From a virus: a stretch of 24,072 bases of DNA. Within the stretch, counting starts at the first letter, position 1. Each line of letters begins with the position of its first letter. The stretch spans positions 1 through 24,072 of IMG/VR virus record IMGVR_UViG_3300030099_006345, one strand, 5' to 3'. The translations under genes were made by a program, and so were the position numbers. The notes beneath the pieces were generated by a model. That model worked only from the letters and a program-made list of their open reading frames with translations. It made no database searches and was not told where the DNA came from. Positions 1-22,271 of the stretch are shown here, in pieces.

Positions 1-125
1 TCTAAGGTCAACTGGTTGATTCTTGAGAGGAACACTTCATCAATTTTTTTTTCTTTCTGTAGACGATTAATAGTAGAATAATAATAAGACTTACCTTTTA
101 CTTCGTTACGTTTTTTCTGCCACAT
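1..125 (-). CDS. Hypothetical phage protein, N-terminal 41 residues only
   Basis: The reading frame starts with ATG at 125 and runs off the left edge of the window. Its start overlaps the TAA stop of the next gene upstream by one base (TAATG), the same coupling seen at several junctions here, which supports a real, co-transcribed gene. The visible part begins MWQKKRNEVKGKSYYYSTIN and is basic, then becomes charged and helical (RLQKEKKIDEVFLSRINQL). I do not recognise a family from this fragment. It belongs to the left block of probable virion or late genes, but its role cannot be judged from 41 residues. Confidence 0.7.
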   Translation of the reverse strand, partial: MWQKKRNEVKGKSYYYSTINRLQKEKKIDEVFLSRINQLTL

Positions 126-1084
126 TAGGCACCTTCAGGATTTTCAATATTTGGTTCTTCTGGATTAGTTGGAAGAGATTCTTCAAAATTTTGAAACAAT
201 AATTTCATATTATATAAACACCAATCGCGATACATTTTTTGGTCTTCTTCATTGGACAAGTCAAGATAAGCATCAGAAAAATAAGATTGAACTAATCTAA
301 AAGCGTCAAAGGCTTGGTTTCTGCCTGTTGTGTCTCCAGTGATTCCTCCACCAAATTCTTGCTTCTCCATTTCAGCATCTCTTTTCTTTTCGAAATCTTT
401 TTGCACTTGGGATTTAGCTTTCTCATCAGATTGTTTTTCTTCATCAGATACGATATCTATTTCTTGTTCTTCTAATCCGTAGTAAACTTCTTTCAATACT
501 TCTTCCAACATACCTTCTAATTCGTTTTCTATATCTTGTGATTCTTGACCTTCTGGAGGAGCTGCAAGGACTCCTGCTGATTCTTGGTCGGCAGCAGCTT
601 CTATATCACTTAAGTCAGATTCTATCTCACCTTGTGCCTGCAAAGCGTCCAACTCATTAAACAACCTAACAAAAGCATTCAACATGTGAGCAGTGAAAGT
701 ATCTCTCTGTTCTTTTGTTGATGTTAACTGTTGGTACTTAGATTTTAAAGTTGGTTTGGCTTTTCTAAAAGCATCACGCAATTTATTGATCCCAGTGTTC
801 GGATGAGGGTTAGCCATTTCTTTTGCTTCTTTGATTAAAGATCTGATAACCATTCTCAATTGTAACTCTTGTTCTTCTTCTATTCTTTGTTGTTCGTGTA
901 TTTGTTTTCTAATTTTGTTTCTGATGTATTTTCTCAGAAGGGCTTCAGTTTGGACTTCTTCTCTCATCATGCAATCTTCCTCTTTCTTTTTAGGAGCACT
1001 AGGAACTGCATATCCAGAGACAGCAGCTGATGTTGACATTTCTAGTAGTTCTTCTATGGATGTAATTTCTATAATATTTTTCAT
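125..1084 (-). CDS. Acidic coiled-coil phage protein, possible head or scaffold-associated
   Basis: 319 residues, beginning MKNIIEITSIEELLEMS. Residues about 45-90 form a strongly charged helix with repeated IR/EE blocks (LLRKYIRNKIRKQIHEQQ then RMVIRSLIKEAKEM). The middle (about 155-245) is very acidic and rich in Glu, Asp and Gln. The C-terminal third (FDAFRLVQSYFSDAYLDLSN, then DWCLYNMKLLFQNFEESL) looks like a compact helical domain and ends in a Pro/Glu tail. No catalytic motif is visible. The start overlaps the upstream stop (TAATG), so it is translated with the metallopeptidase-like gene. Charge pattern and position next to other structural-looking genes suggest a scaffold-like or internal head role, but this is inference; the family is not one I can name. 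Confidence 0.75.
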   Translation of the reverse strand: MKNIIEITSIEELLEMSTSAAVSGYAVPSAPKKKEEDCMMREEVQTEALLRKYIRNKIRKQIHEQQRIEEEQELQLRMVIRSLIKEAKEMANPHPNTGINKLRDAFRKAKPTLKSKYQQLTSTKEQRDTFTAHMLNAFVRLFNELDALQAQGEIESDLSDIEAAADQESAGVLAAPPEGQESQDIENELEGMLEEVLKEVYYGLEEQEIDIVSDEEKQSDEKAKSQVQKDFEKKRDAEMEKQEFGGGITGDTTGRNQAFDAFRLVQSYFSDAYLDLSNEEDQKMYRDWCLYNMKLLFQNFEESLPTNPEEPNIENPEGA

Positions 1085-2112
1085 TATTTCTCTTCTGATT
1101 GTTTGGATTCTAAGATCTGTCTTAATTGTGCAACAGTCAAAGAGTCAAGAATTTTCTCGATATCAGATTCTCCAATTTCAGGAGCTTCTTCTTTTTCATC
1201 TTCCATCTCTTCTTCCATTTCTTCTTTCATTTCTTTTGCATCTTCAGCAGCATCTTTCATTGATTCTTCTTTGTCTCCATCTTTATCAAGATCGAGAAAA
1301 TCAGGCTTTGCTTCTTCATCTAATTCATCTTCAGAAACAATTTCTTTATTTTCATCATGATCTTTCTCATCATCTCTTTTGTGTGAGTGCTCTTCTTGAA
1401 CTAATATGTCCAAGTCCTCAACAGCAATGTTTTCAACGATAACGTCTTCGAACTCAACTGTGTAGTGACTTATTTCACCAGACTCACTAAGAGTGTGTTT
1501 GATAGGATGTCCTTGTTTCCCTGATTTCTTATGTGTAACTTTGAGAGCACACATGTGTGTAATTTCTTTAGACTCATTTAATTTATCCAAATTCATTGAG
1601 AAGCCGAACTTTTCATTGAGAAGGCTATTGAGTTCTTTGTTTTTCCAATCTTTTGTTGACATTTTATAAATTCTCCTTTCATTAAAAATGTTTGGATTGG
1701 AAGACTTATAACCATCCTCCCAATCTCTAAAGCACATGTTTCCTTGTAAATAGGCTTCTTTTTCCATTTTTCTCAAATGGGGATCAGATTGTGCATAACC
1801 TTGACCTGTCGATAGTTTATCATTATCAAACATTCCGCATTCGTTTTGGTTATGGTGCACTAATTCATGAGAAAAAGATCTCATAATGTCTTTAGGGTGC
1901 CTACCATCGACATAAATGACTATCTCCATGTTTGATGGGTCATAGTGGGCGGTTTTTCCAAGAGGAGAAGTGTTGCTAGAGTCTGACTTGAGACTTAAAG
2001 TAACAGGTTTCTTGAATCCAAAACGTTTTTGAGAGAACGAATACAAGTCTTGCATTAATTCCTCTATCTGTTTTACATCATAATTTGAATTATTGATAAT
2101 TTGACAAGTCAT
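1084..2112 (-). CDS. HExxH metallopeptidase-like phage protein with acidic C-terminus
   Basis: 342 residues. The N-terminal domain (about 1-135) carries HELVH at residues 82-86 inside DIMRSFSHELVHHNQNECG, the zinc-binding HExxH signature, followed by a conserved-looking KMEKEAYLQGN block in which Glu119 could be the third, gluzincin-type ligand, and then RDWEDG. The remainder is low-complexity and very acidic (about 250-320, runs of Glu, Asp and Lys), ending in a helix (VAQLRQILESKQSEEK). Similar HExxH proteins occur among structural genes of marine T4-like phages; the substrate is unknown and it is not a recognisable T4-type prohead protease. Four bases separate it from the stop of the upstream gene, and its own stop overlaps the next start. 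The Shine-Dalgarno sequence is weak, so coupling is likely. Confidence 0.8.
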   Translation of the reverse strand: MTCQIINNSNYDVKQIEELMQDLYSFSQKRFGFKKPVTLSLKSDSSNTSPLGKTAHYDPSNMEIVIYVDGRHPKDIMRSFSHELVHHNQNECGMFDNDKLSTGQGYAQSDPHLRKMEKEAYLQGNMCFRDWEDGYKSSNPNIFNERRIYKMSTKDWKNKELNSLLNEKFGFSMNLDKLNESKEITHMCALKVTHKKSGKQGHPIKHTLSESGEISHYTVEFEDVIVENIAVEDLDILVQEEHSHKRDDEKDHDENKEIVSEDELDEEAKPDFLDLDKDGDKEESMKDAAEDAKEMKEEMEEEMEDEKEEAPEIGESDIEKILDSLTVAQLRQILESKQSEEK

Positions 2113-2115
2113 ACT

Positions 2116-2403
2116 CTAATTAGTTTCTACTTTTCTTATTTTCGAGAGTAAGATCCAATATTGGTTACCTCCGTTTTCCATTACTTCGGCATAATAAACC
2201 ATTCTACCACCCATCTTCGTACCCCTTATTTGCATAATAATACCTTGATGTATGCTAATTGTTTCTTCATAATTCTCATTTCTTGTCATTTTTCTCCATT
2301 CGACGTATTCGCCAACTTCGAAACCTGTCAAATATGACTTACCAAGCATATCCATTCCTTCTTCTTTGATGCGAACCACGGGCCACCCAAAGTCATACTT
2401 CAT
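2116..2403 (-). CDS. Small conserved-style phage protein with a GEYVEW beta-rich core
   Basis: 95 residues starting MKYDFGWPVVRIKEEGMDML. A further upstream ATG at 2427 exists but has no ribosome site and lies inside the preceding gene; the start at 2403 follows AAGGG and begins a more typical phage N-terminus. The core (EVGEYVEWRKM, then HQGIIMQIRGT, then YYAEVMENGG, then WILLSKIRKV) alternates short beta strands as in small SH3-like barrels, and the G-E-Y-V element recalls the G-D-L-V proteins of the right half of the window. No catalytic residues are evident. It sits between two structural-looking genes and overlaps the upstream gene by 11 bases. Confidence 0.7.
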   Translation of the reverse strand: MKYDFGWPVVRIKEEGMDMLGKSYLTGFEVGEYVEWRKMTRNENYEETISIHQGIIMQIRGTKMGGRMVYYAEVMENGGNQYWILLSKIRKVETN

Positions 2404-2782
2404 AATAATAGGACCCTTGTCCTGCATAATTGTTGTCTTTTTCCTCTTCAGCCTCTTCTGCTACACTTTCCATTGCTTTTTCCATGTCTGGTTCTGGTAC
2501 ATCTACTTGCAATTCGTTTTCTAGGTAATGTTTTACCTTAGAAATGTAGTCATCTGCTAAAGTTATCTTGTTTTGTACCCAAGATTCCAATTCTTGATTG
2601 TCTTCTAGTATCATATGTAGTCCTAATGCGTATTTAGCCATCTTTAAAAGCTGATTTTTAGCCATTTCACCCTCTAGATCATGTTCTACACCATGACTAC
2701 TACGGTCCATTTTAGGTCCAGAATAAGCCATTTCTAGCTCTTCTTGGATGATTTTTTGTACTTTTTTCTTGGATATTTTCAT
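2393..2782 (-). CDS. Phage protein with capsid-targeting-like leader and helical body
   Basis: 129 residues. It opens with MKISKKKVQKIIQEELEMAY, a short basic amphipathic helix ending in I-x-E-E, a leader style that recurs in this window (see 9482-10384) and is common in uncultured marine phage proteins. The body is helical (NQLLKMAKYALGLHMILED then KITLADDYISKVKHYLENE) and the C-terminus is acidic then Tyr/Gly-rich. I recognise the KITLADDYISKVKHYLE type of segment from marine phage structural clusters but cannot give a function. A good ribosome site (GAGGG, six bases before ATG) fixes the start. By analogy with T4 internal head proteins the leader may direct it into the prohead; that is inference. 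Confidence 0.75.
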   Translation of the reverse strand: MKISKKKVQKIIQEELEMAYSGPKMDRSSHGVEHDLEGEMAKNQLLKMAKYALGLHMILEDNQELESWVQNKITLADDYISKVKHYLENELQVDVPEPDMEKAMESVAEEAEEEKDNNYAGQGSYYYEV

Positions 2783-2791
2783 TTTATTCCC

Positions 2792-2917
2792 TCATTTTAA
2801 CATAATAATTAGTAAAATTAGTATTACAGAGACCTCAAAACCTACAAAATAGTAAAAAATAAGCCAAAATGTTGATAAAAGTGCAAAAAGCACTGTTTTT
2901 TCTACTAATTTTTCCAT
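2792..2917 (-). CDS. 41-residue two-helix membrane protein
   Basis: A short ORF starting MEKLVEKTVLFALLSTFWLI and ending in KTGA, AAA then TGA. It has two hydrophobic stretches: residues about 9-25 and about 28-40 (VSVILILLIIMLK), enough for two short membrane spans or a hairpin. It starts one base after the stop of the upstream gene, preceded by TAGGG about ten bases away, and ends nine bases before the next ATG, so it fits the packed gene order exactly. No family is recognised. A holin-like, pinholin-like or envelope-modifying role is possible for a phage protein of this shape, but nothing in the sequence proves it. Confidence 0.6.
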   Translation of the reverse strand: MEKLVEKTVLFALLSTFWLIFYYFVGFEVSVILILLIIMLK

Positions 2918-2918
2918 T

Positions 2919-3212
2919 TTAGTTAAACCCTAGTCTTATTATTAGGTCACTTGGTACTAAAAACAGCTGTCCTTGTCCGAAAAGATAAGGTGAATACACC
3001 ATTACTCGTCCTTGGTCATCTTCTATGTCTGCTACAAGGTACATTTTCCATGTTGGTCCCAAATATAAGAACTTTTTGTCTGTTTTTGAGTAAAATTTCT
3101 GTTTTTTATCAATTTTTAAGTGAATTGGCTCCAGCATTTTGTTTTTTTGATCACAAATACACTTCCATTGCTTAGTGTAAAATATTTCTAGCTTTTTATC
3201 CCATTCAGTCAT
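2919..3212 (-). CDS. Hypothetical phage protein, 97 residues
   Basis: The start at 3212 (MTEWDKKLEIFYTKQWK) is chosen over an in-frame ATG seven codons upstream because GGAGG lies eight bases before it; the longer form would place the ribosome site inside the coding sequence. The protein is basic and Lys-rich in the first half, with two cysteines in CICDQ, and beta-rich in the second half (MYLVADIEDDQGRVMVYSPY, then QLFLVPSDLIIRLGFN). The ending resembles a small barrel with a final S-D-L strand, but no motif identifies it. It follows the HAD-Nudix gene by about 55 bases and is probably on the same transcript. Confidence 0.7.
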   Translation of the reverse strand: MTEWDKKLEIFYTKQWKCICDQKNKMLEPIHLKIDKKQKFYSKTDKKFLYLGPTWKMYLVADIEDDQGRVMVYSPYLFGQGQLFLVPSDLIIRLGFN

Positions 3213-3268
3213 GTACAAATCCTCCATTTCCATGCCTTTATCATTTAAAACTTTGTCAATAATATTTT

Positions 3269-4339
3269 TTAACGTTTTTTTTTATTTATTTTGACTCTAA
3301 GTTTCTTTTTTTCCTCTTCTTTCTCCTCTAAAACTGCAAAATCTGGAGGTGCGGCTTTTGATTTCTTAAAAGATGGGCGAGTATGACCTTTTCCACCACC
3401 AGTGTGCTTGTTTTTTCCATATCCAACGAGTCTTTTCTTCATTTTAGACCAATTTTTGTTTTGAGTAGCCAAATATGCTGTCTCTTTTAGAATTTCATGG
3501 TCCATAGAAAGCCAAAATTCTATAGCTTCTATAGCCACTTCTGTTGCATGATTGGTGTATGCTGGTAAATTTTCCTTGGTTGTCCAAACAAACTCTGAAT
3601 TTTCTTGTTTATCTTGTATTCCTAGGTCCACTGGTGGTGCTTCTGATGGGAAATCTGAGTAAAACACTATAACATCGCTGTATTTATTTTTAAAATGGTT
3701 ATCGAATCTGTGTATTTCTGTGTAATTAGGGACCAATAGTCCTGTTTCTTCCGCTACTTCACGTTCATATCCGTCTTGTAGTCCTTGATAACCTCTTTCA
3801 ACCTCAACATCCTTAACGTGTCCACCCGGCAAATCCCATTTTTTCTCTCCATCTGTTCTTTTGAGAAGTAAGATCTTGCCTGTTGAGTCAGTTATTATAC
3901 CTTTTGCAACAATTGCTGTGTCTGGATGTATTTCTAGTGCCCTTACACACTCAATTCCAGCGTTCTTACATGCTAAAATCTCTTCTATGTCGTCATCATG
4001 ATGCAAATCTATCTTAAGATTCAGTAATGTTTGAGCTTTTAGTTCTCTGTTTGTATAAATTATACGCTCTGGTGGGAAATAATTGATAATTCCAAGTGTT
4101 TTGAGGTGATAAGTTATCCTTTCTTTAGGAAAATCTGCTTCTAGTTTATAAACTCTTGAGGTTACGATGAAAACGTTGTGACCTTCCTTGATATAATTCA
4201 GCATTCTATCAATAAATTCTTGATTATACCCCTGATGAATGAATTTCACATCTTCAGATTCTTCATCCATGTAAGACATTGAAATAGTGTTGTCCCAATC
4301 AAAAGAAATGTTCATTTTTTTGCTAAAATAATTTGACAT
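3269..4339 (-). CDS. HAD-like phosphatase fused to a Nudix hydrolase, with phage C-terminal tail
   Basis: 356 residues in three parts. Residues 1-135 form a HAD-like domain: FDWDNT (motif I, Asp14 and Asp16), IVTSR at about 58-62 (motif II) and HHDDDIEE at about 113-120 (motif IV acids). Residues 140-300 form a Nudix domain with LPGGHVKDVE and REVAEETGL; compared with the classical GX5EX7REUXEEXGU box there are 13 rather than 7 residues between the first Glu and REV, so the box carries a six-residue insertion but keeps the metal-binding Glu pair. The tail (about 320-356) has YGKNKHTGGGKGHTRPSFKK, a Gly/Lys-rich ending I associate with marine phage proteins. A nucleotide-cleaning or NAD/nucleoside-diphosphate-processing role is likely. 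The gene has its own strong promoter. Confidence 0.85.
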   Translation of the reverse strand: MSNYFSKKMNISFDWDNTISMSYMDEESEDVKFIHQGYNQEFIDRMLNYIKEGHNVFIVTSRVYKLEADFPKERITYHLKTLGIINYFPPERIIYTNRELKAQTLLNLKIDLHHDDDIEEILACKNAGIECVRALEIHPDTAIVAKGIITDSTGKILLLKRTDGEKKWDLPGGHVKDVEVERGYQGLQDGYEREVAEETGLLVPNYTEIHRFDNHFKNKYSDVIVFYSDFPSEAPPVDLGIQDKQENSEFVWTTKENLPAYTNHATEVAIEAIEFWLSMDHEILKETAYLATQNKNWSKMKKRLVGYGKNKHTGGGKGHTRPSFKKSKAAPPDFAVLEEKEEEKKKLRVKINKKKR

Positions 4340-4361
4340 TTGTTGTTTCCTGTGTTATAAT
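4333..4361 (+). promoter_or_regulatory. Plus-strand sigma-70-type promoter, TTGACA-17-TATAAT
   Basis: TTGACA at 4333-4338 and TATAAT at 4356-4361 are separated by 17 bases: a perfect consensus on the strand opposite to the genes. The -35 box overlaps the start codon of the HAD-Nudix gene. The leader (AATCTGGGAGGATTACA) resembles that of the plus-strand promoter at 10444 (AATCTGGGGAGATTATA). No convincing plus-strand gene follows; the transcript would run antisense to the cupin-like gene. Confidence 0.6.
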
Positions 4362-4411
4362 ATTAATATAATCTGGGAGGATTACACTAGTAACTAGAAT
4401 CTGATATTTAC

Positions 4412-4440
4412 ATTATATCATATCATGGAGGATTTGTCAA
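4412..4440 (-). promoter_or_regulatory. Strong sigma-70-type promoter of the HAD-Nudix gene
   Basis: On the minus strand TTGACA (4435-4440) and TATAAT (4412-4417) are 17 bases apart, and the 60 bases upstream are almost pure A/T with several A-tracts, like an UP element. It carries no GGWCA dyad, unlike promoters in the right half. It faces the plus-strand promoter at 4333-4361 with start sites only about 35-40 bases apart. Confidence 0.75.
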
Positions 4441-4502
4441 ATGATTTTAATTATTTTTTTCTTTTATATATTTTCTTTTTTATATAATAATAATATATTA
4501 TA

Positions 4503-4778
4503 CTATAATTTATATAATTTAATTATTAATTTATCATTACCTTTAATAAGTCTATGGTATGTTAGTTTAGGTATAAAATATTCTCTACCCTCAGTTAATT
4601 GCATAGGTAATTGGTTATCTAGTTGTAATTTCCAATTAGATCCTTTCACCACAGATACAACTCTATCTTCTTTGTCTAAATGCCATATTAATTGTTCTTC
4701 ATCAGTATCAGATTTAAATTCTCGTAAATATAAATTACCAGATATATGAATTTCTTTGAATGGAGGTTTATAAATCAT
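4503..4778 (-). CDS. Cupin-like small beta-sandwich protein
   Basis: 91 residues starting MIYKPPFKEIHISGNLYLRE. The ATG at 4778 overlaps the TAA stop of the preceding gene (TAATG). The pattern of short strands, with VVKGSNWKLQLDNQ, then MQLTEGREYFIPKLTYHRLI and LIIKLYKL, matches the second half of a cupin barrel: a Gly-x-W turn, the E-G-x-x-x-x-I-P block and a following His. The first cupin motif with paired His is not clear, so metal binding is doubtful. Single-domain cupins of this size are frequent in marine phage genomes with no established role. The 62 bases after its stop are A/T-only and hold the upstream element of the next promoter. Confidence 0.6.
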   Translation of the reverse strand: MIYKPPFKEIHISGNLYLREFKSDTDEEQLIWHLDKEDRVVSVVKGSNWKLQLDNQLPMQLTEGREYFIPKLTYHRLIKGNDKLIIKLYKL

Positions 4779-6088
4779 TACCAAAACCTACCGGGAACAT
4801 TCTTTCCAAAATCTTTATGTGCTCTACAAGCCCAATAACCGGATTTAGTTCTATCTTTCTTATCAGCACAGTTGTGTCTAGCAGCAAAAGATTTACGAGC
4901 TTCAGCATTGTTCCAATTTCCTTTAAGACCACCTTTAGAATCTCCATAAGTGATTTTCTTTACATTACCAGTCTTTGGATTTCTTACATAAACTTGGTAT
5001 TTCTTTCCACCTCCAGAATTCTTCATAGGTTTTCCAATTGGTGGATCTTTCTTTTCATCAAGATTTTCAATATACATTGGAAAGTCAAGAGGAACTTCCT
5101 CACCTTCAAACATTACCCATTCTCCAAGATCAGTATTTTCTAACATATGTTTCTCTTCATCATTGATTACTTCATATAAACCGATCTTATAAAATTCTCT
5201 TCCCTGTCTAATCGTATTGAAATAACATTCAGATCCAACACGATAGATGTTTTCATGGAGAGGGGTTTGAGTTTTTACATGTTCTAACAATCCTTCTTGA
5301 AAAACTACTTTTCTAACTTCATCATCAATTATACGATCTAAAGTTTCGTTTTTCTTTGCAGCTTTCTTTCCCCAAGATTTACCTTTGCCTCTTTCTTTAC
5401 AAGCAGATGGAGTCGGTCTACAAGCAGGATATTTAGATCTCTTTTCTCCTGCCTCTCTACCACAAGCTTTATAACCACCTTTACCATCTGGTGCATTACA
5501 ATCAACCCAACCGCTTTTTTTGCCCTTAGCTCCTTTCCTTCCAAACCAATCACCTAAGTTAGATTCTTTCGAAGATTCAGAACCAGCTTTCTTAGCTTCT
5601 TTTTTAATTTCTATCTCTTCATTATCATCTAAGATATAATCTTTATCTTTGTGTTGACCAACGTTTGGCATTCCTTCTAAGGTTTTAATAATTTCTTCTT
5701 CCATGTCTTCACCGACTGCTTTCAAAAATGGATCCATTCCAGAAGCACCACCTTCATCTTTGAGAACTTTTTCTAATTTCTTAGGGTCTACGTGAGTGTA
5801 TCCCTTCTTAGCTAGTTCATGATGATCTTCTTCTTTGTTAGCCATTACCATATCACCTGTTTTAGGATCATACATTTTATGAGCTTTAAATTCTTCATTG
5901 ATAGCTTCGTTCTTTTTTGATTTATTGCCCCAATTCTTTGCACCAACCTTACGACATTTTACAAGAGCTCCTGAAGCATAAGCTGATGGCCATACTTTAT
6001 AACGAGATTTGACTTTATGATAACAAGCATCTTTTTTGGCTTCTTCATTAACGCCTTTGTTGATTCTCACTTTAATACTTTTTTTCAT
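4778..6088 (-). CDS. Lys/Cys-rich multidomain phage protein, probable virion component
   Basis: 436 residues. It begins with the basic tag KKSIKVRINKG. Residues about 22-57 (HKVKSRYKVWPSAYASGALV, then CRKVGAKNWG) form a small module widespread in phage and giant-virus proteins. A second module near 180-235 has DWFGRKGAKGK, GWVDCNAPDGKGGYKACGRE and SKYPACRPTPSACKERGKGK with five cysteines. The C-terminal module (about 365-436) has ARKSFAARHNCADKKDRTKS then GYWACRAH, a phage tail-end module with two conserved Cys. Linkers between them are acidic. The modules resemble DUF-type domains of cyanophage and marine phage proteins; the exact Pfam names should be checked. It overlaps both neighbours. 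No enzyme motif is visible; a DNA-binding or internal capsid role is inferred. Confidence 0.75.
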   Translation of the reverse strand: MKKSIKVRINKGVNEEAKKDACYHKVKSRYKVWPSAYASGALVKCRKVGAKNWGNKSKKNEAINEEFKAHKMYDPKTGDMVMANKEEDHHELAKKGYTHVDPKKLEKVLKDEGGASGMDPFLKAVGEDMEEEIIKTLEGMPNVGQHKDKDYILDDNEEIEIKKEAKKAGSESSKESNLGDWFGRKGAKGKKSGWVDCNAPDGKGGYKACGREAGEKRSKYPACRPTPSACKERGKGKSWGKKAAKKNETLDRIIDDEVRKVVFQEGLLEHVKTQTPLHENIYRVGSECYFNTIRQGREFYKIGLYEVINDEEKHMLENTDLGEWVMFEGEEVPLDFPMYIENLDEKKDPPIGKPMKNSGGGKKYQVYVRNPKTGNVKKITYGDSKGGLKGNWNNAEARKSFAARHNCADKKDRTKSGYWACRAHKDFGKNVPGRFW

Positions 6089-7086
6089 TTTTTTTCTTTC
6101 CTCATTCGAATTGTTTTTTCTTTGGAAGCTTCCTTACGTTTCTTAGCATATTCAAATGCTCTTTTTAATCTTGCTTTGACTTTTGGGTCCTTAGCATTTT
6201 CGTAAGCTGCTCTTACTCTTTGGTGTATAAGATTAATTATTTGCGATTGTCGTTTGTGACTCTTGGATTTAAAAGACGCTTTGGATAATGTATCTTTAAT
6301 ATCCTGAACCGTTGAGAATTTAACTGAAACGGTATCGGAAGGGTCTTCGTCGGTATACAATCTTCTACCTGAGCCTTTTGGTTTTTTGCCTGTGCCTTTA
6401 GCAGGTTCTTTGGCTTCTTTTTCAAGCTCAGGGTGGAATCCAATATGAACCAATTTACCATCTTTTTTAACAATCTTGTTATCAACTTTAATTTCAGCTG
6501 GGTAAATTTTGCTAGGATCATTGTACCAATAATATACATCGTAACCACCATCATCTAGAAGTTTAACAACCAAACCTCTGCTATAATTTTCATCTTCTGC
6601 TTTTAATATAACCTCTTTTCCTCTTGGAAGTTTTAAATCAAATTCATCATTTTCTTTATTTTCAGCCTTAACACAATTACGATATGTTTTTCCAAACATT
6701 TCTTTTGTTTTTCTTGTTGGGTGTGTTTTATAACCTTTTTGACAACGTTCTTTTAACTTGCCCTTTTCATCCATTGATAATGCAATAGCAACAGCTTGAT
6801 CTTGTTCCATACCCTTGTCCATTAATTTAGATATCTCTTTTGAAACAGGATCTTTTTTCTTTTTTTCTTTTAGATTCTTTACAATTTTTATTTTAATCTT
6901 TCTTTCGTCGTCACGTTTTCCGTCGCCACCGCCGCCACCATCACCACCGGCATCACCATAGTCGCCATAACTACCACCATAGCCCCACCAATAAGCAGCT
7001 CTTGGAGTTCTTTTCTTTCTACTCTTTTTGCGTTTCTTACGTTTCTTTTTCTTCTCTTCGAGAACTTTTGTAATTCTAATCTTCAT
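6085..7086 (-). CDS. Highly basic multidomain phage protein with duplicated KIRITK-type leader
   Basis: 333 residues. It begins MKIRITKVLEEKKKKRKKRK, followed by a Gly/Tyr/Asp-rich spacer (WWGYGGSYGDYGDAGG and a Gly5 run), and then a second leader-like copy (KIKIKIVKNLKEKKKK). Next come KEISKLMDKGMEQDQAVAIA plus CQKGYKTHPTRKTKEMFGK with a Cys pair, a beta-rich region (VVKLLDDGGYDVYYWYND), and a C-terminal helical basic module (SQIINLIHQRVRAAYENAKD then KARLKRAFEYAKKR). The modules occur in shuffled order in marine phage proteins. The duplicated leader suggests fusion of two genes that each carried it. It overlaps the next gene by ATGA. DNA condensation or head-internal location would suit the composition but is inference. 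Confidence 0.7.
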   Translation of the reverse strand: MKIRITKVLEEKKKKRKKRKKSRKKRTPRAAYWWGYGGSYGDYGDAGGDGGGGGDGKRDDERKIKIKIVKNLKEKKKKDPVSKEISKLMDKGMEQDQAVAIALSMDEKGKLKERCQKGYKTHPTRKTKEMFGKTYRNCVKAENKENDEFDLKLPRGKEVILKAEDENYSRGLVVKLLDDGGYDVYYWYNDPSKIYPAEIKVDNKIVKKDGKLVHIGFHPELEKEAKEPAKGTGKKPKGSGRRLYTDEDPSDTVSVKFSTVQDIKDTLSKASFKSKSHKRQSQIINLIHQRVRAAYENAKDPKVKARLKRAFEYAKKRKEASKEKTIRMRKEKK

Positions 7087-7090
7087 AACA

Positions 7091-8053
7091 CTATAAATAG
7101 TTATAAGAAATGGTTATGATAGAACTTTCAGGAGGTGTAACAGTGAAATGTATAGTATTTGTAGGTTCATCCCAAGTCCAATCAGGATAAAGAACGTTAT
7201 CAACAAATACTTCTATGTGACTTAATGAAACTGGTGTAAAGTCAAGTGGAACATCCTCAATCAATTGAACTTGTTGAGCAGCTTGAGAAACACCGTTCGA
7301 CCAATCTGGGCTGCATATGTCTATTATCTGTCCACTAAAATGGTTTGCAACATCCATATAATTTGTTCCAACATCATGTTGATAATAAGTGTTTGAACAA
7401 ACAGATGAGGCAATATCAACATTAACAATGGAAGCTATAAATACTTCTGATCTTATAAGAGAGACCCAAGTAATAAAATCCCAAGAACTCAGGGTAGATT
7501 GATCGTTTTCATCAGAAACAAAAACAATTAACAAAGCAGCGTCTGGTCTCATCCAATTTTGTGCATCATTGTTTTGTTGTATATATCTCTTAACAGAATC
7601 AAAACCTTTTTCATAATGACCAGATATATTATTTTGAAGGTGACTTTGAACGGTTGAAAAATTATCACCGGGAAGAACAGGAAAAGAACTTAGTGAATAG
7701 GCTCTATTTGGATCTCCGGGAATAAGTTCTAATCTCCAATTTACATTTGTTGGCAAAGCTAATAACATTTGTTCAATACCAAGTAATACTTGAGCATGAT
7801 GGGCATACATGGATCCCGATGGATCAATAACCCACAATATATCAACACCATTACCATGGCTTGGTTGGACATAAGTCTGAGACCAAACAGGATACTCTTC
7901 AGGTACTTCTACCTCAACTTCAACCTCAACTTCTTTCTCAACTTCTATGATAACTTCAACATAAGCAGTATCATAAATGTATCTTTCCTCAACAATTTTG
8001 TTAGTCAGCATTTGATCAGACATACAAGAAAATAAAAACGACAATAAAAACAT
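7091..8053 (-). CDS. Short-signal lipoprotein with von Willebrand factor A domain
   Basis: 320 residues. MFLLSFLFSC is a very short lipoprotein signal with Cys10 as the likely lipidation site. Then comes a stalk with a VEVEVEVEV repeat (about 38-48), produced by a hexanucleotide-type DNA repeat. The vWA domain starts at about 70, DILWVIDPSGSM, with the MIDAS D-x-S-x-S intact, and a later SDENDQS acid. Four cysteines lie in SSVCSNTYYQ and IIDICSPDW regions or the signal. A C-terminal beta domain ends SSIITISYNYL. A clear GGAGG precedes the ATG. The product is expected in the outer membrane or periplasm, where vWA domains bind ligands in a metal-dependent way. Such lipoproteins are typical of Myxococcota/Bdellovibrionota-like bacteria, so host origin is plausible. 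Confidence 0.8.
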   Translation of the reverse strand: MFLLSFLFSCMSDQMLTNKIVEERYIYDTAYVEVIIEVEKEVEVEVEVEVPEEYPVWSQTYVQPSHGNGVDILWVIDPSGSMYAHHAQVLLGIEQMLLALPTNVNWRLELIPGDPNRAYSLSSFPVLPGDNFSTVQSHLQNNISGHYEKGFDSVKRYIQQNNDAQNWMRPDAALLIVFVSDENDQSTLSSWDFITWVSLIRSEVFIASIVNVDIASSVCSNTYYQHDVGTNYMDVANHFSGQIIDICSPDWSNGVSQAAQQVQLIEDVPLDFTPVSLSHIEVFVDNVLYPDWTWDEPTNTIHFTVTPPESSIITISYNYL

Positions 8054-8077
8054 AATAGAACCTCCGTCTATTAATAA

Positions 8078-8668
8078 CTATAAACTACTTTTCAAATCGA
8101 TAATTTTATTTACAATTTCATTTCGATTATAGCCCTCTATCACAGTATGAATTACAAGATCATCATCTAGAAGAACGTAATACGGATAAGTAGAATAAGG
8201 AAAACCTGTCTTACCGAGGTTAATATCTATAAAAGCTCTTCCCCCAAGCCAAACATAAAAATGTGATAATAGAAAAGCATTAGCCCATCTTCTCCCATCA
8301 CTAAGAGAAGGGTTCATCCCTGCTTCGTTTTCCATTATTATTGTTATCCACTTAATATCACTACCCATTGTTTTCATATAATCATTATCAGCAGATGATC
8401 TCTGACAATCACTACATCTCATGCTGGTTAATTCGAGAACGATTGGTTCTCCATGGTAAGCATAAAGATCATCAACAGTGTTCATGGCTGTAGCCATAAC
8501 AAGATTGCATATATGATCTCCAGCGTTAAAGGAACATTCAATCGTTTCCCAATGAATAGGATCAGTATCGGCAACAACTTCATCAACAACACCAGTCTCA
8601 ACAGCTTGTTTTTCAAAGACACAAGACAAGGGCAATAAAATTAACACCAAGAAAAAAAATTTATCCAT
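8078..8668 (-). CDS. Thioredoxin-fold lipoprotein with C-S-D-C active site
   Basis: 196 residues. MDKFFFLVLILLPLSC is a lipoprotein signal with Cys16 at the lipobox. The mature part has ECSFNAGDHICNLVM, a Cys pair ahead of a thioredoxin-like core: EPIVLELTSMRCSDCQRSS with a CxxC motif, then a strand WITIIMEN and a TYPYYVLLDDD element that supplies the cis-proline. The active site lacks the usual Trp and Gly-Pro (C-S-D-C instead of W-C-G-P-C), so its redox potential or substrate may differ from its tandem neighbour. Start overlaps the upstream stop (TAATG). It is a diverged duplicate of the gene at 8668-9231. Confidence 0.85.
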   Translation of the reverse strand: MDKFFFLVLILLPLSCVFEKQAVETGVVDEVVADTDPIHWETIECSFNAGDHICNLVMATAMNTVDDLYAYHGEPIVLELTSMRCSDCQRSSADNDYMKTMGSDIKWITIIMENEAGMNPSLSDGRRWANAFLLSHFYVWLGGRAFIDINLGKTGFPYSTYPYYVLLDDDLVIHTVIEGYNRNEIVNKIIDLKSSL

Positions 8669-9231
8669 TATTCTGCTTTTAAAATTTCAATGTTTGCAAT
8701 AATCTGATCTTTATTCCAGCCACTTTGAACAGTTCTTATTCTTAAGTCTTTATCAAGAATTAAAAAGTAAGGCCAACCAGTATTAGCAAAACCAGTCAAA
8801 CCATCAGGGTCACGATTATCATCAGAACCCAACCATATTTCATTATGCCATATTCCAAAATAATCACCCCAAAATTGTCCATCCTCTTGAGTTGGAACTT
8901 CTCCATCAAGATTTTCGATAAGAACGGTAACCCAAGTAACACCTTCGGTCATAACTTTAATAGAATTGGAATTCCAAGCAGCCTCTTGACATGGTCCACA
9001 CCACATAGCAGAAACATCAACAACAATAACCTCACCATAATGAGAATATAAATTATCAAAACCGCCATCAGAAACTTGCAACGCAAGATCGCATATATGG
9101 TCTCCGCCGTTATAAGAACATTCGTCCTCGCTCCAATAAATTGGAGACTCCTCAACAACAACAGCATCCACATCAGATGAGTCGTTTTCAATTGGGGCAT
9201 CGCAGGCCCATAAAAGCAAATTAAGCAACAT
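8668..9231 (-). CDS. Thioredoxin-like lipoprotein with W-C-G-P-C active site
   Basis: 187 residues from the ATG at 9231. An in-frame longer form begins at 9360, but GGGAG lies eight bases before 9231 and this start gives a compact lipoprotein signal MLLNLLLWACDAP with Cys10 at the lipobox; the extension would overlap another gene and destroy the signal. The mature part keeps DECSYNGGDHICDLAL, the catalytic VSAMWCGPCQEAAW, the strand WVTVLIENL and the cis-Pro element TGWPYFLILDKD. It would act in the periplasm as a thiol-disulfide oxidoreductase or TlpA-like reductase. Family similarity points to Myxococcota-type secreted thioredoxins. Followed immediately by its C-S-D-C paralogue. Confidence 0.85.
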   Translation of the reverse strand: MLLNLLLWACDAPIENDSSDVDAVVVEESPIYWSEDECSYNGGDHICDLALQVSDGGFDNLYSHYGEVIVVDVSAMWCGPCQEAAWNSNSIKVMTEGVTWVTVLIENLDGEVPTQEDGQFWGDYFGIWHNEIWLGSDDNRDPDGLTGFANTGWPYFLILDKDLRIRTVQSGWNKDQIIANIEILKAE

Positions 9232-9268
9232 CAAAACATCTCCCGGGGCAAACACCCCACATAAGTAA

Positions 9269-9475
9269 TTAGGAGCCACCACGCTTATTTGCAAGCGGCA
9301 AATGAATTCTATCGCTTGGTTTGTCCATGCAACAACGTTCGCTAAAAATTTTCCCATCACAATCTCTCGAAATGTTCGTCATAGACTTCCGTTGTCTTTC
9401 AAGGCGAGAAATTTCTCTCTTCATATAACTTATAATTCTTTCATAAGCTTTTATTTGTTCTTCGATTAAATCCAT
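9269..9475 (-). CDS. Small charged coiled-coil protein
   Basis: 68 residues starting MDLIEEQIKAYERIISYMKR. The first 35 residues form a clear charged heptad-like helix; the rest contains an unusual CC pair in FSERCCMDKP and a basic end. The ATG at 9475 is seven bases downstream of the kinase-like gene's stop and is preceded by TAGG. It fills the gap between that gene and the lipoprotein once the latter's start is set at 9231, which supports both calls. No family recognised. Confidence 0.6.
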   Translation of the reverse strand: MDLIEEQIKAYERIISYMKREISRLERQRKSMTNISRDCDGKIFSERCCMDKPSDRIHLPLANKRGGS

Positions 9476-9481
9476 TAGAAC

Positions 9482-10384
9482 CTACACAAATTTATTAAAT
9501 ATAGAAATATCAATCAAGATAAGTCGAGACTTCTTTTCATCCGTTGCAACATTGCCTTCTCGAATTTCGTCGAAGTCTACTCCAAGCTCTTTGCATGTGG
9601 TAACAAATCTCATAAGCTTTTCATTGTTGGTAGCAATTGACCACGCTTCTTCGAGACGAGCAATAATTATTTTCTCTAACCTATCTCTAAGAATTTCTCG
9701 GTATATGTCAGCGTCAACAGAATCAGCCAAACTTTTGAACATTCTTTTAACAGCTCTTGAGTGAAAGATCTCATCAAGCCACATGCCCATCGCATCTCCA
9801 TCATCATCTGAGTAAGCATCCAAGATTCTTTCGAAGACCCAAGAGGAACCAAGATCATTATAATAAGTAAAACCATCAATAGATATTCCGGGAGATATGT
9901 CAATTGGTCGAGACAAAAAGTTAGCAGCTTTTCTCAGAGAACTATAAGCACTGGTTAATACACTATTCATTTCTCTACCGTCTTCTACAACATCGACCTT
10001 TTCGACGACAAACCATTCGGGGCCGCCCTTAGAGCGATCCCATGTATAAGTTCTGGGGAATACGTGGGGATGCTTGTTGAATGCTTTGATCTCCATCATA
10101 TTAGACTGAATTCCTTCCGACTTTGTATTGGGGTCGCCAATCGCAAACTTAATCACTGTACCGCCAATTGGTGCTCCTCCATGATCAATACCATAAACTT
10201 CTCTTGAGTATCCGGCTCCAATGCGTTTTCCAATATTCTTTTGAATCCACTCGGTGTCTAGGAACGGTCCCTTCTTGTATATCGCATTTTGTGTATCAAT
10301 AATTTGTTGAACGCCTTTACCGAAAAACGAACGCTCCATTTCTTCCTTTATCAACTCATACAATCTTTGTTCTGTTAGCTTCAT
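9482..10384 (-). CDS. Protein-kinase-like phage protein with capsid-targeting-like leader
   Basis: 300 residues. The leader MKLTEQRLYELIKEEMERS matches the basic/amphipathic I-x-E-E leaders seen elsewhere here. Then comes a kinase-fold N-lobe: IGKRIGAGYSREVYGI (glycine-rich loop, about 51-66), TVIKFA with the candidate ATP-binding Lys79, MMEIKAF with Glu98 as alpha-C acid, and a hinge WFVVEKVD. Near the C-terminus GVDFDEIREGNV approximates the catalytic loop with its Asn278, and LILIDIS supplies a DFG-like metal Asp292. The catalytic loop spacing is one residue off the classical D-x4-N, so activity is uncertain. Kinase-like proteins of this type are found in marine phages. If the leader targets it to the head, it could be injected with the DNA. 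Confidence 0.75.
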   Translation of the reverse strand: MKLTEQRLYELIKEEMERSFFGKGVQQIIDTQNAIYKKGPFLDTEWIQKNIGKRIGAGYSREVYGIDHGGAPIGGTVIKFAIGDPNTKSEGIQSNMMEIKAFNKHPHVFPRTYTWDRSKGGPEWFVVEKVDVVEDGREMNSVLTSAYSSLRKAANFLSRPIDISPGISIDGFTYYNDLGSSWVFERILDAYSDDDGDAMGMWLDEIFHSRAVKRMFKSLADSVDADIYREILRDRLEKIIIARLEEAWSIATNNEKLMRFVTTCKELGVDFDEIREGNVATDEKKSRLILIDISIFNKFV

Positions 10385-15580: not shown

Positions 15581-15777
15581 GAATGGACTTTCATCAACAT
15601 GCCCTCGTTGCATTGGACTCTGTTGCCATTGTGGATGTTTTGCACCCTGATAAAGCCCTTGAATTGTCCTTTTTCTCTTGGTTCTACACCTATCACAAGC
15701 CAAATCTCGTTGTTATGTCTCCAGTCTGCATACGAGTGTTGCTTGATATAAACCAAATCTCCTATTTTTATTTTCAT
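15568..15777 (-). CDS. GDLV-family small barrel protein, operator-terminated
   Basis: 69 residues, MKIKIGDLVYIKQHSYADWR then NNEIWLVIGVEPREKGQFKG and FIRVQNIHNGNRVQ. It ends HSDKK with the TGA stop inside the module 6 dyad; the family member at 16382-16576 ends in the same SDKK at its own dyad, so these two cassettes share a 3-prime junction with the module. It is closest to 16382-16576 (IKIGDLV, W-L-V-I-G, N-V/I-x-x-G-x-R, M-L-M/K). The ATG overlaps the upstream stop (ATGA). Confidence 0.75.
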   Translation of the reverse strand: MKIKIGDLVYIKQHSYADWRHNNEIWLVIGVEPREKGQFKGFIRVQNIHNGNRVQCNEGMLMKVHSDKK

Positions 15778-15980
15778 ACTCCCCCCAGTGTCTCGATATA
15801 ATGAGATGAAAATTTAAACCTATTGATTGCCGTGCCGTATGGATTATCCTTTACGAACGTAACCCAACAAATAACTGATCCATCATAGTGTTTTATTGGC
15901 TCTATCTCTGTTATTATTGCTAAGGCACGAGAATTTGCCCCAACTCCTGTGTAAACTTTCACTAAATCACCTACTTTCAT
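15774..15980 (-). CDS. GDLV-family small barrel protein
   Basis: 68 residues, MKVGDLVKVYTGVGANSRAL then AIITEIEPIKHYDGSVICWV and TFVKDNPYGTAINRF. The strand order and spacing follow the family: G-D-L-V strand, a loop, A-I-I-T-E strand, W-V-x-F-V strand. The C-terminus ETLGGV replaces L-E-V but its codons (GGGGGAGT) still supply a ribosome site for the next ATG. It overlaps both neighbours by four bases. Confidence 0.75.
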   Translation of the reverse strand: MKVGDLVKVYTGVGANSRALAIITEIEPIKHYDGSVICWVTFVKDNPYGTAINRFKFSSHYIETLGGV

Positions 15981-16135
15981 AATACCTCCAAATCTTTTGC
16001 TCTATGACGGTATCTCGTACCATCTGTCCATTGAACCTCGATGAAGTCGTTTATACTTTCCCAAGAATGAACAGATACAATTACCCCGACCTTTTTCTTA
16101 TTTATCCATAGTGCTACCAAGTCACCTACCTCCAT
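15977..16135 (-). CDS. GDLV-family small barrel protein, 52 residues
   Basis: MEVGDLVALWINKKKVGVIV then SVHSWESINDFIEVQWTDGT and RHRAKDLEVL. This is the shortest and most canonical member: G-D-L-V strand, V-G-V-I-V strand, F-I-E-V-Q-W strand, D-G-T turn, D-L-E-V end. The F-x-x-V-x-W-x-D-G pattern is what one expects of an SH3-like barrel. Its TGA overlaps the next start (ATGA), and GGAGG at its start comes from the end of 16137-16310. Confidence 0.75.
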   Translation of the reverse strand: MEVGDLVALWINKKKVGVIVSVHSWESINDFIEVQWTDGTRYRHRAKDLEVL

Positions 16136-16136
16136 A

Positions 16137-16310
16137 CTACCTCCGATCCTGTGGGTCTGAAATATTTATTTGATAAGTGAAGCCTTCTTTGGCTTTTGGT
16201 TGATCTTTGCAGAAGCTATCGAAAGACAACAACTTCTCAAGTTCATCAAACAACCAGTATCTTGTTAGCTTGTTTGTTTGGTTGTATTCTTCTAAAATAT
16301 AAATTCTCAT
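16137..16310 (-). CDS. Hypothetical small protein, lead gene of barrel operon
   Basis: 57 residues from the ATG at 16310, which follows GGAG by six bases; the in-frame ATG four codons earlier contains that ribosome site and is rejected. The same start arrangement (ATGGAGTT-AAA/C-ATG) is used by 23000-23821. The protein (MRIYILEEYNQTNKLTRYWL then FDELEKLLSFDSFCKDQPKA) looks like a strand followed by helices. Its last codons CGG AGG TAG form the ribosome site of the next gene. No family recognised. Confidence 0.65.
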   Translation of the reverse strand: MRIYILEEYNQTNKLTRYWLFDELEKLLSFDSFCKDQPKAKEGFTYQINISDPQDRR

Positions 16311-16341
16311 TTTAAACTCCATTGCTGTTGGTTATGTTTAT

Positions 16342-16394
16342 ATTATAACCTTTACTCACAATAATGCAAACAATAAGTCGGTCATTTTTTGTCC
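16342..16394 (-). promoter_or_regulatory. Operator-promoter module 7, dyad overlaps upstream stop codon
   Basis: Dyad GGTCA-TTTTT-TGTCC at 16380-16394, identical to module 6; -35 TTGCAT at 16364-16369, -10 TATAAT at 16342-16347, 16-base spacer, leader ATAAACATAACC. Long class (33 bp). Contains the TGA of 16382-16576. Drives 16310 down to 15568. Confidence 0.9.
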
Positions 16395-16576
16395 GATTTG
16401 AAATGTTTTAGCATATTCATGTCGTATTGGCATCTTTCTCCAGTATAGACATTTTGTATACTTATATAATCATTGAAGATATTCCAACCGATTACGAGCC
16501 ACAGGTCAATTGTATTATGTCTCATTGACTTTACACGATCTTTAATCTGTACTAAATCACCTATTTTTATTTGCAT
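16382..16576 (-). CDS. GDLV-family small barrel protein, operator-terminated
   Basis: 64 residues from the ATG at 16576, which lies four bases after GGAGG. An ATG ten codons earlier is in frame but would include that ribosome site. MQIKIGDLVQIKDRVKSMRH then LWLVIGWNIFNDYISIQNVY and TGERCQYDMNMLKHF. Ends SDKK with TGA in the dyad. Closest relative is 15568-15777. It overlaps the upstream gene by ten bases. Confidence 0.75.
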   Translation of the reverse strand: MQIKIGDLVQIKDRVKSMRHNTIDLWLVIGWNIFNDYISIQNVYTGERCQYDMNMLKHFKSDKK

Positions 16577-16752
16577 ATCACCTCCAAGTACTTGATATAA
16601 ATCCATTGCTTCATGCCATTGTGTTTTGTTATATTCATGACTCTTACGGCTTGATGGGGTTTGTTTGGATATTTTGGAAGTTCTATCACAACGAATAGAC
16701 CTTCTTTTTTGGCTGATAGCCTGTTGTATCTCACTAAATCACCTATCTCCAT
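16567..16752 (-). CDS. GDLV-family small barrel protein
   Basis: 61 residues, MEIGDLVRYNRLSAKKEGLF then VVIELPKYPNKPHQAVRVMN and KQWIYIKYLEVICK. It has the family strands (G-L-F-V-V-I-E, A-V-R-V-M-N, W-I-Y-I-K-Y) and the LEVICK terminus whose codons hold GGAGGT for the following gene. The same LEVICK end occurs in the partial gene at the right edge of the window, the strongest hint of recent shared ancestry between these two cassettes. Confidence 0.75.
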   Translation of the reverse strand: MEIGDLVRYNRLSAKKEGLFVVIELPKYPNKPHQAVRVMNITKHNGMKQWIYIKYLEVICK

Positions 16753-16918
16753 GTATCACCTCAATAAATTTATAATGATGGGCTACTGTGCTGTTTAAAC
16801 ATAACCAGTGAATTCTCCAAGTATCTTTGTTTATTTTCCCTATCACAATCCCCAAGCCCTTTATGACTCCTTTTACATGCCTTCCTCTTTTATGCTTTAC
16901 CAAGTCACCTATCTGCAT
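16739..16918 (-). CDS. GDLV-family small barrel protein
   Basis: 59 residues, MQIGDLVKHKRGRHVKGVIK then GLGIVIGKINKDTWRIHWLC and HHYKFIEVIHGDR. Basic loop between the first two strands; W-R-I-H-W-L strand in the middle; F-I-E-V-I near the end. It overlaps its neighbours by 14 bases, so the last codons encode both HGDR and the start and GD region of the next copy. It is too short for many gene finders but the frame, start and ribosome site (GGAGGTGTTGA-ATG) all agree. Confidence 0.7.
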   Translation of the reverse strand: MQIGDLVKHKRGRHVKGVIKGLGIVIGKINKDTWRIHWLCLNSTVAHHYKFIEVIHGDR

Positions 16919-17048
16919 TCAACACCTCCAAGTGGTCTTTGGGTATAGTCCAACGATTATTCACAATAACATAATTATCATTACGAACTTCCGTTATGAC
17001 CCACATTTCTCCTGTGAATATACCTTTCACTAAATCTCCTACTTGCAT
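16905..17048 (-). CDS. GDLV-family small barrel protein, 47 residues
   Basis: MQVGDLVKGIFTGEMWVITE then VRNDNYVIVNNRWTIPKDHL and EVLNADR. Minimal version of the fold: G-D-L-V, W-V-I-T-E, Y-V-I-V-N-N, W-T-I-P, L-E-V. The ribosome site GGAGGTGCT lies in the last codons of the upstream copy. Ends 14 bases into the next copy. Confidence 0.7.
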   Translation of the reverse strand: MQVGDLVKGIFTGEMWVITEVRNDNYVIVNNRWTIPKDHLEVLNADR

Positions 17049-17197
17049 AGCACCTCCAAATCCCAAGTATAGTACCAGTCCATCGAGTTATCATTATATA
17101 TCACTTGATATAAAGGCTCTCCATTGTCCTCATCTATATCTGTATTACATATAATTCCAATGTAATCACCAGTTTTTACTAAAGTTCCTATTTTCAT
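17039..17197 (-). CDS. GDLV-family small barrel protein, first of array
   Basis: 52 residues, MKIGTLVKTGDYIGIICNTD then IDEDNGEPLYQVIYNDNSMD and WYYTWDLEVLCK. The GD motif reads G-T here. Strands Y-I-G-I-I-C, Y-Q-V-I-Y, W-Y-Y-T-W and the D-L-E-V end match the family. It is acidic, unlike 16739-16918. GGAGAG precedes the ATG and module 8 lies 30 bases upstream, so this is the promoter-proximal copy of a five-gene run. Confidence 0.7.
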   Translation of the reverse strand: MKIGTLVKTGDYIGIICNTDIDEDNGEPLYQVIYNDNSMDWYYTWDLEVLCK

Positions 17198-21873: not shown

Positions 21874-22099
21874 ATATTCTTATGTTACCTATAAAGCTAC
21901 GATTATCACGAAGAACTTCGCTTATTGTCTTTCCTTCTATTTTACAAATTTCGGGATACTTCTGTATATTACCCTCGCAGTCGGAGGAGTACACCAGTAC
22001 GTCATAGGAGTCATCTATTACCAAGTAATTATTGCCCTTGTATTCGACAACACAAGCAAAGCTATTTCTATATTCATCAATCCATTTCAGTATTTTCAT
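21833..22099 (-). CDS. Hypothetical protein, 88 residues, reads through a promoter
   Basis: MKILKWIDEYRNSFACVVEY then KGNNYLVIDDSYDVLVYSSD and CKIEGKTISEVLRDN. Starts at the ATG at 22099 after GAGGTG; a TTG one codon earlier is less likely. Beta-rich first half, helical end. The last 17 codons (IWSKNVRLNDCIIK) run through the module 13 dyad and -35 box and stop within the spacer. Last gene of the six-gene operon from module 14. No family. Confidence 0.65.
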   Translation of the reverse strand: MKILKWIDEYRNSFACVVEYKGNNYLVIDDSYDVLVYSSDCEGNIQKYPEICKIEGKTISEVLRDNRSFIGNIRIWSKNVRLNDCIIK

Positions 22100-22271
22100 C
22101 AATCACCTCTACAACATCTTGTTTCAGAAAGGAGAAAACACCCCCAACATTAGGTGACTGTATCAATACAAATTCTTTGCCACCTCTTACTTCAAATCCA
22201 ACAACTTTCCAAAGTGTCTCGATTAGTTCGCCCTTGTTGTCGTTAAATCTTACATGATCACCTATCTTCAT
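22077..22271 (-). CDS. GDLV-family barrel protein (GDHV variant)
   Basis: 64 residues, MKIGDHVRFNDNKGELIETL then WKVVGFEVRGGKEFVLIQSP and FLKQDVVEVIDENTEMD. G-D-H-V replaces G-D-L-V. Strands W-K-V-V-G-F, F-V-L-I-Q-S and the end V-V-E-V-I match the family, with the GAGGTG codons of E-V serving as ribosome site for 21833-22099. The acidic tail after E-V-I overlaps that gene by 23 bases. Confidence 0.7.
   Translation of the reverse strand: MKIGDHVRFNDNKGELIETLWKVVGFEVRGGKEFVLIQSPNVGGVFSFLKQDVVEVIDENTEMD

Follow-up and report, generated by a model that had tools for sequence, protein, structure and literature searches.

The window analysed here comprises bases 1-24,072 of the IMG/VR record IMGVR_UViG_3300030099_006345 (84,406 bases; also G000), and the elements under study are the N-terminal leaders of two proteins encoded in it, one of 300 amino acids with a body described as kinase-like and one of 129 amino acids (Table 1). 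Nearly all genes of the record lie on the minus strand, and its far end encodes sheath- and tube-like tail proteins in a T4-like style, the tail assignment being made by eye. A first-pass annotation had proposed that both leaders are basic amphipathic segments ending in I-x-E-E that may serve as capsid-targeting signals. Both were found to be real gene starts, each opening an open reading frame (ORF) with a Shine-Dalgarno-like (SD-like) site upstream, and MKLTEQRLYELIKEEM and MKISKKKVQKIIQEEL share M-K-[IL]-[TS]-x3-[LV]-x2-[LI]-I-x-E-E in the same register. The amphipathic character was weak, the hydrophobic moment of the two leaders being unexceptional compared with shuffles of the same residues. 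Across the 84,406-base record the generalised motif occurred at these two gene starts only, against 0.001 matches expected when the first 14 residues of every protein were redrawn from that protein's own composition; a third, weaker leader lies beyond the window. Because the generalised motif was derived from the window's two sequences, the independent evidence comes from the collection searches described below.

Table 1. Coordinates of the tagged proteins, their leaders and related genes (window numbering unless stated; a slash marks a cut or candidate cut here and in the text).
Feature	Position	Strand	Observation
Tagged 300-aa (amino acid) protein, "kinase-like" body	9482-10384	minus	ORF with SD-like "cggga" upstream
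Leader MKLTEQRLYELIKEEM of the 300-aa protein	10337-10384	minus	Fits the family motif
Tagged 129-aa protein, body domain LExWVQxKITxAxDYI	2393-2782	minus	ORF with SD-like "gaggga" upstream
Leader MKISKKKVQKIIQEEL of the 129-aa protein	2735-2782	minus	Fits the family motif
Untagged 436-aa protein	4778-6088	minus	DACYHKVKxRY body
Untagged 333-aa protein	6085-7086	minus	ERCQKGYKTHxTRKT segment
342-aa neighbour	1084-2112	minus	C-terminal half matches a gene of S-H9-1, E=2.5e-8
Third, weaker leader-like protein, start MKLTKEILKEMVIKEMKMTE/A	record 54963-55652 (L002:11064-11753), outside the window	minus	

When IMG/VR was searched with MKI[TS]xxx(hydrophobic)xx(hydrophobic)IxEE written as degenerate DNA, at least 120 stretches matched, which revealed a widespread N-terminal tag with the consensus MKITKxQLxxIIKEE-[LI]xxLLxE, written MKITKSQLKQIIKEEL. 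Among the matches listed there were at least 165 tag starts, 150 of them with an SD-like site (91%, compared with 30% for all ATGs of the same loci), and wherever a listed locus held several leaders, all of them lay on a single strand (32/32). The 30 large leader records carried 123 leaders, 1 to 13 per record; the loci had been picked for having one leader, and the informative counts are those past the first. The reversed pattern had 0 matches in these 30 records, and the tag pattern had 0 in 8 control records. Control patterns with the spacing off by one base recovered no leaders, one of them giving 65 out-of-frame matches, indicating that the register matters. I12, E14 and E15 are conserved because the search pattern required them; of the 38 non-EE leaders in a wider recount, 27 still kept E14, and position 15 was most often A (16 cases). 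A tblastn search with the bare leader gave no matches, perhaps owing to the low-complexity filter, and the MKITKxQLxxIIKEE tag was not found in print in the papers searched. It might still be suspected that two N-termini rich in lysine and glutamate look alike by chance, as the motif is short and one of the matches listed, a phage lysozyme (locus L153), is such a coincidence. The 0.001 matches expected in the record and the 123 leaders against 0 for the reversed pattern refute it for the family, and for the two window proteins its probability is negligible.

A stricter pattern run against prokaryote genomes (257 Gb) matched 11 stretches, every one in a metagenome-assembled genome (MAG). The largest, NHDW01000006.1 (305,838 bases, filed under a Methylococcaceae MAG), carries eight leaders and a gp21 gene and is most likely phage DNA for that reason. 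These MAG contigs (L374-L384, in GTDB) are phage-like, were binned with bacteria and can be recognised by the tag.

The bodies behind the tag were largely unrelated. Leader proteins 100 amino acids or longer, 111 distinct ones in all, fell into 90 body clusters, 81 of which were singletons, and identity across leader proteins was 63% in the leader and 7% in the region just downstream. A short N-terminal segment on unrelated bodies is one mark of a T4-type capsid-targeting sequence (CTS), and the expectation that such leaders would be frequent on unrelated proteins of uncultured phages was thus borne out. Synonymous codons of the leader were identical between phages in 47% of cases against 41% expected, a near-random value indicating that the peptide and not the DNA is conserved. 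Few tagged bodies could be assigned to known families, these being pentapeptide repeats, GNAT and a TseH-like domain, and most are small and of unknown function. The TseH-like (type VI effector-like) domain, PF25218 (E=9e-15), is found in a tagged protein on the minus strand of L091 (10031-10849).

Two bodies that are untagged in the window were found behind the tag elsewhere. The DACYHKVKxRY body of the 436-aa protein stands directly behind MKITLSQLRGMVEEALLEK in locus L079 (phmmer E=5e-38), where the homologous body begins 20 amino acids past the first residue of the leader, and the ERCQKGYKTHxTRKT segment of the 333-aa protein stands directly behind MKITKTHLREMIKQQ in L078 (phmmer E=1e-16), with homology beginning 12 amino acids past that residue. 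Relatives of the 129-aa protein carry MKIS or MKIT leaders in 7 loci, and its EWVQ body occurs in at least 119 places, some of them behind T4-style leaders, namely MKSFKSFLAE/A in L273 and MKNFKDFLNE/S in L288, both of which resemble the T4 IPIII leader MKTYQEFIAE/A. Its relatives in two cyanophages begin MKTFKQLREE. The tag and T4-style leaders are therefore interchanged on the same body. The EWVQxKITxAxDYI domain itself (L255-L372) recurs very commonly as a module in modular phage proteins, often beside DACYHKVKxRY. The match of the 342-aa neighbour in the cyanophage S-H9-1 adjoins a leader-bearing homologue, so that the neighbourhood is conserved. It was also considered whether a cyanophage "cytidyltransferase" links this neighbour to the virion proteome of S-SM1; no S-SM1 match was obtained and the link was not used.

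The tag is associated with T4-type head genes. The gp21 protease (PF03420) was encoded in 22 of the 30 leader records, with 11/11 among those above 140 kb; 20 of 28 encoded the gp23 capsid protein. The protease was likewise present in 3 of the 8 control records, so only some T4-like phages are marked by the tag. Of 22 records, 18 had a leader no more than 15 kb from gp21, compared with 8.4 expected from circular shifts, none of whose 5000 trials gave a value as high as 18. The propeptides of the major capsid protein (MCP) in leader phages, with the cut position inferred by analogy and not mapped, ended in L-[RK]-E in 21/21 cases, followed by A in 10, S in 8, Q in 2 and T in 1. Together with the frequent LLTE near the N-terminus of the protease, these junctions point to an L/I-x-E specificity of the enzyme in leader phages.

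The link to head genes could instead reflect lineage only, if the leader sent proteins to the membrane or another compartment or acted on expression. Leaders are confined to certain T4-like lineages, and the co-occurrence with gp21 is accordingly in part a matter of shared ancestry. Against such a role stand the proximity to gp21, the matching cleavage motif described below, the occurrence of T4-style leaders in place of the tag on one body and the diverged synonymous sites, which speak for selection on the peptide, and we regard it as highly improbable.

In T4 the prohead protease cuts after L/I-x-E, and leader lengths are known (PMC9026906, PMC9958956). From the T4 record, gp23 LTE65/A, gp24 LRE10/S, IPI ITE19/A and IPIII MKTYQEFIAE10/A were recovered, in agreement with the published cuts. 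The site [LI]xE[GAS] was present within residues 16-40 in 41 of 152 leader proteins, compared with 13.1 in shuffles (z=8.1), and it peaked in register at residues 19-22, with its E at residue 21 or 22. The excess disappeared when E was replaced by D, Q or K, and the residue following [LI]xE was G, A or S in 41% of occurrences within leaders compared with 20% of those within their bodies (P=2e-4). The L/I-x-E rule put forward in the first-pass annotation was thus upheld by the T4 cuts, the MCP junctions and the site enrichment. Its wider suggestion of a portable, targeting-like tag on unrelated bodies was supported, the tag being tied to T4-type head genes, but the cut that it placed at I-K-E/E or I-Q-E/E was not supported: no capsid protein here has E after the cut, for which reason I-x-E14/E15 is not favoured, and the tag site is enriched at 21/22. 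The candidate site usually falls about two helical turns downstream of I-x-E14. A minority "EA" form, MKITKxxLxxIIKE/A, is compatible with a cut at residue 14, and I-x-E14/A is plausible there. Within residues 1-35, long untagged ORFs of the same loci were likewise far richer in [LI]xE[GAS] than shuffles were (78 vs 25, z=10), as in MKLLMENWRKFLKE/G and KLITE/SWRSFL, so that the tag is one of several leader types among probable gp21 substrates.

The leader might alternatively act as a docking helix that binds the core, the portal or the capsid interior and stays uncut, most tagged proteins, including the two in the window, being packaged untrimmed. The near-fixed EE that ends the leader fits this idea, since mapped or inferred cuts have a small or polar residue next, as does the large minority of tagged proteins without any [LI]xE in residues 16-40. 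T4 provides a precedent: a CTS with D at position 10 is no longer processed but still targets (PMC9026906). The strong in-register enrichment of gp21-type sites just past the leader and the I-x-E14/A form speak against an uncut helix, and we consider it unlikely.

A further possibility is that tagged proteins are parts of the prohead core or scaffold that are targeted there but broken down during maturation, leaving nothing to inject. T4 gp22, gp67 and gp68 are core proteins cleaved into fragments (PMC9958956), and their sequences contain many L/I-x-E sites; the small size of most tagged bodies would also agree. The TseH-like, GNAT and pentapeptide-repeat bodies instead look enzyme- or effector-like, and internal sites were not enriched in leader bodies (37 vs 48 in shuffles; 325 vs 261 for non-leader ORFs), which makes digestion of this kind improbable.

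We therefore favour, with a probability of about 0.7, the reading that the leaders are capsid-targeting sequences working like the T4 CTS, a likeness of working, whatever the descent. Several observations count against it. The strict site is present in only about a quarter of leader proteins, and [LI]xE in about 60%. Avoidance of internal sites in leader bodies is weak, their count being low (P=0.001 against non-leader ORFs) but the residue after [LI]xE unchanged, and two such sites, LEE/A and IRE/G, lie inside the kinase-like body. No gp21 was found in the 84-kb record of the window, apparently a fragment. The few cultured phages tested yielded no instance of the exact tag, and Mel-JY01 and immuto, the cultured phages nearest by protease, are without it. 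Neither window leader has [LI]xE[GAS] in its first 45 residues, where the only [LIM]xE sites are LTE5/Q, LYE10/L and IKE14/E in the 300-aa protein and IQE14/E in the 129-aa protein. By their motif, the two window proteins appear to carry the targeting part of the leader; they may be targeted without trimming, in the manner of the T4 leaders with D at position 10 (PMC9026906), or be cut at an unusual site.

Three known kinds of leader or propeptide come closest to the tag. Like the tag, the T4 CTS of IPI, IPII and IPIII is N-terminal, starts with MK, is portable and precedes L/I-x-E and a small residue, in phages that have a gp21-type protease. It spans 10-19 residues, compared with about 14-22 for the tag, and the core sequences differ (MKTYQEFIAE versus MKITKxxLxxIIKEE), so that only MK and I-x-E-A are common to both; unlike the T4 CTS, the tag is longer, has a near-fixed EE and occurs on up to 13 genes per record. 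The T4 gp24 and gp23 propeptides have an L-x-E/A or L-x-E/S junction, and the same motif ends the MCP propeptide of leader phages, but they sit on structural shell proteins and are not portable cargo tags. The ejection-protein propeptides of phiKZ and SPN3US are also N-terminal, on head or ejection proteins, and cut after E by a gp21 relative, but their motif is S/A-x-E and they are mostly longer than 100 residues, not a short tag common to unrelated bodies.

In the mechanism we infer, leader residues 1 to 14-16 (MK[IL][TS]xxx[LV]xx[LI]IxEE) would bind to the core of a T4-type prohead during assembly and thereby bring any attached protein inside the shell. A gp21-type protease would then trim the leader after L/I-x-E, usually at L-x-E followed by G, A or S with the cut at 21/22, or at I-x-E14/A in the "EA" form. 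The mature protein would be kept in the head and would probably enter the host with the DNA.

The kinase-like protein would, on this model, be packaged and injected. Its kinase identity is unproven: the motifs IGxGYSREVY...VIKFA...EIREGN...LID were picked out by eye only, and the product matched phrog_4301, a family of unknown function, with E=3e-4, and had zero matches in Pfam, NCBIfam and PDB, including any kinase-family profile. Its AF2 model was uninformative (pLDDT 34.5). The full-record count of leaders suggested in the first-pass annotation yielded, besides the two motif matches, the weaker third leader, which has a candidate site MTE20/A. Its body weakly matches S-adenosylmethionine (SAM) lyase PF23780 (E=5e-6, 26.9 bits; cut-off 28); enzymes of this type are known to counteract restriction. 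No IMG/VR relatives were found for either the kinase-like or the SAM-lyase-like protein.

Further features of the record are as follows. A 517-aa protein encoded on the minus strand at record 33617-35227 (L001:9618-11228) has a leader-like start, MSKKLTEQTIDEMIKDILKE, and a C-terminus with IAE/A; it had no family match. Between the tagged genes, window 7091-9360 encodes a VWA-domain protein and two thioredoxin-like proteins with hydrophobic N-termini, and its base skew is unlike that of its neighbours. Many tandem small paralogues with M[KQE][VI]GDLV or M[KQ]IGxLV starts, which look like small beta-barrel proteins, are located at window 15774-17197 and 22077-22271 and at record 24-27 kb. A chaperonin (GroEL-like) gene at record 31982-33555 (in L001) seems to be interrupted by a run of N.

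More broadly, MKITKxxLxxIIKEE may be a general tag that identifies, from sequence alone, head-carried, injected proteins in many uncultured T4-like phages, possibly including anti-defence or takeover proteins such as the kinase-like, SAM-lyase-like, TseH-like and GNAT bodies; we hold this extension tentatively, at somewhat less than an even chance. If true, a simple scan would list the injected proteome of never-cultured phages, an open question for marine viruses, and phages would have a second capsid-targeting sequence beside that of T4, usable for loading proteins into phage heads. Dozens of bodies of unknown function would then become candidate effectors of early infection.

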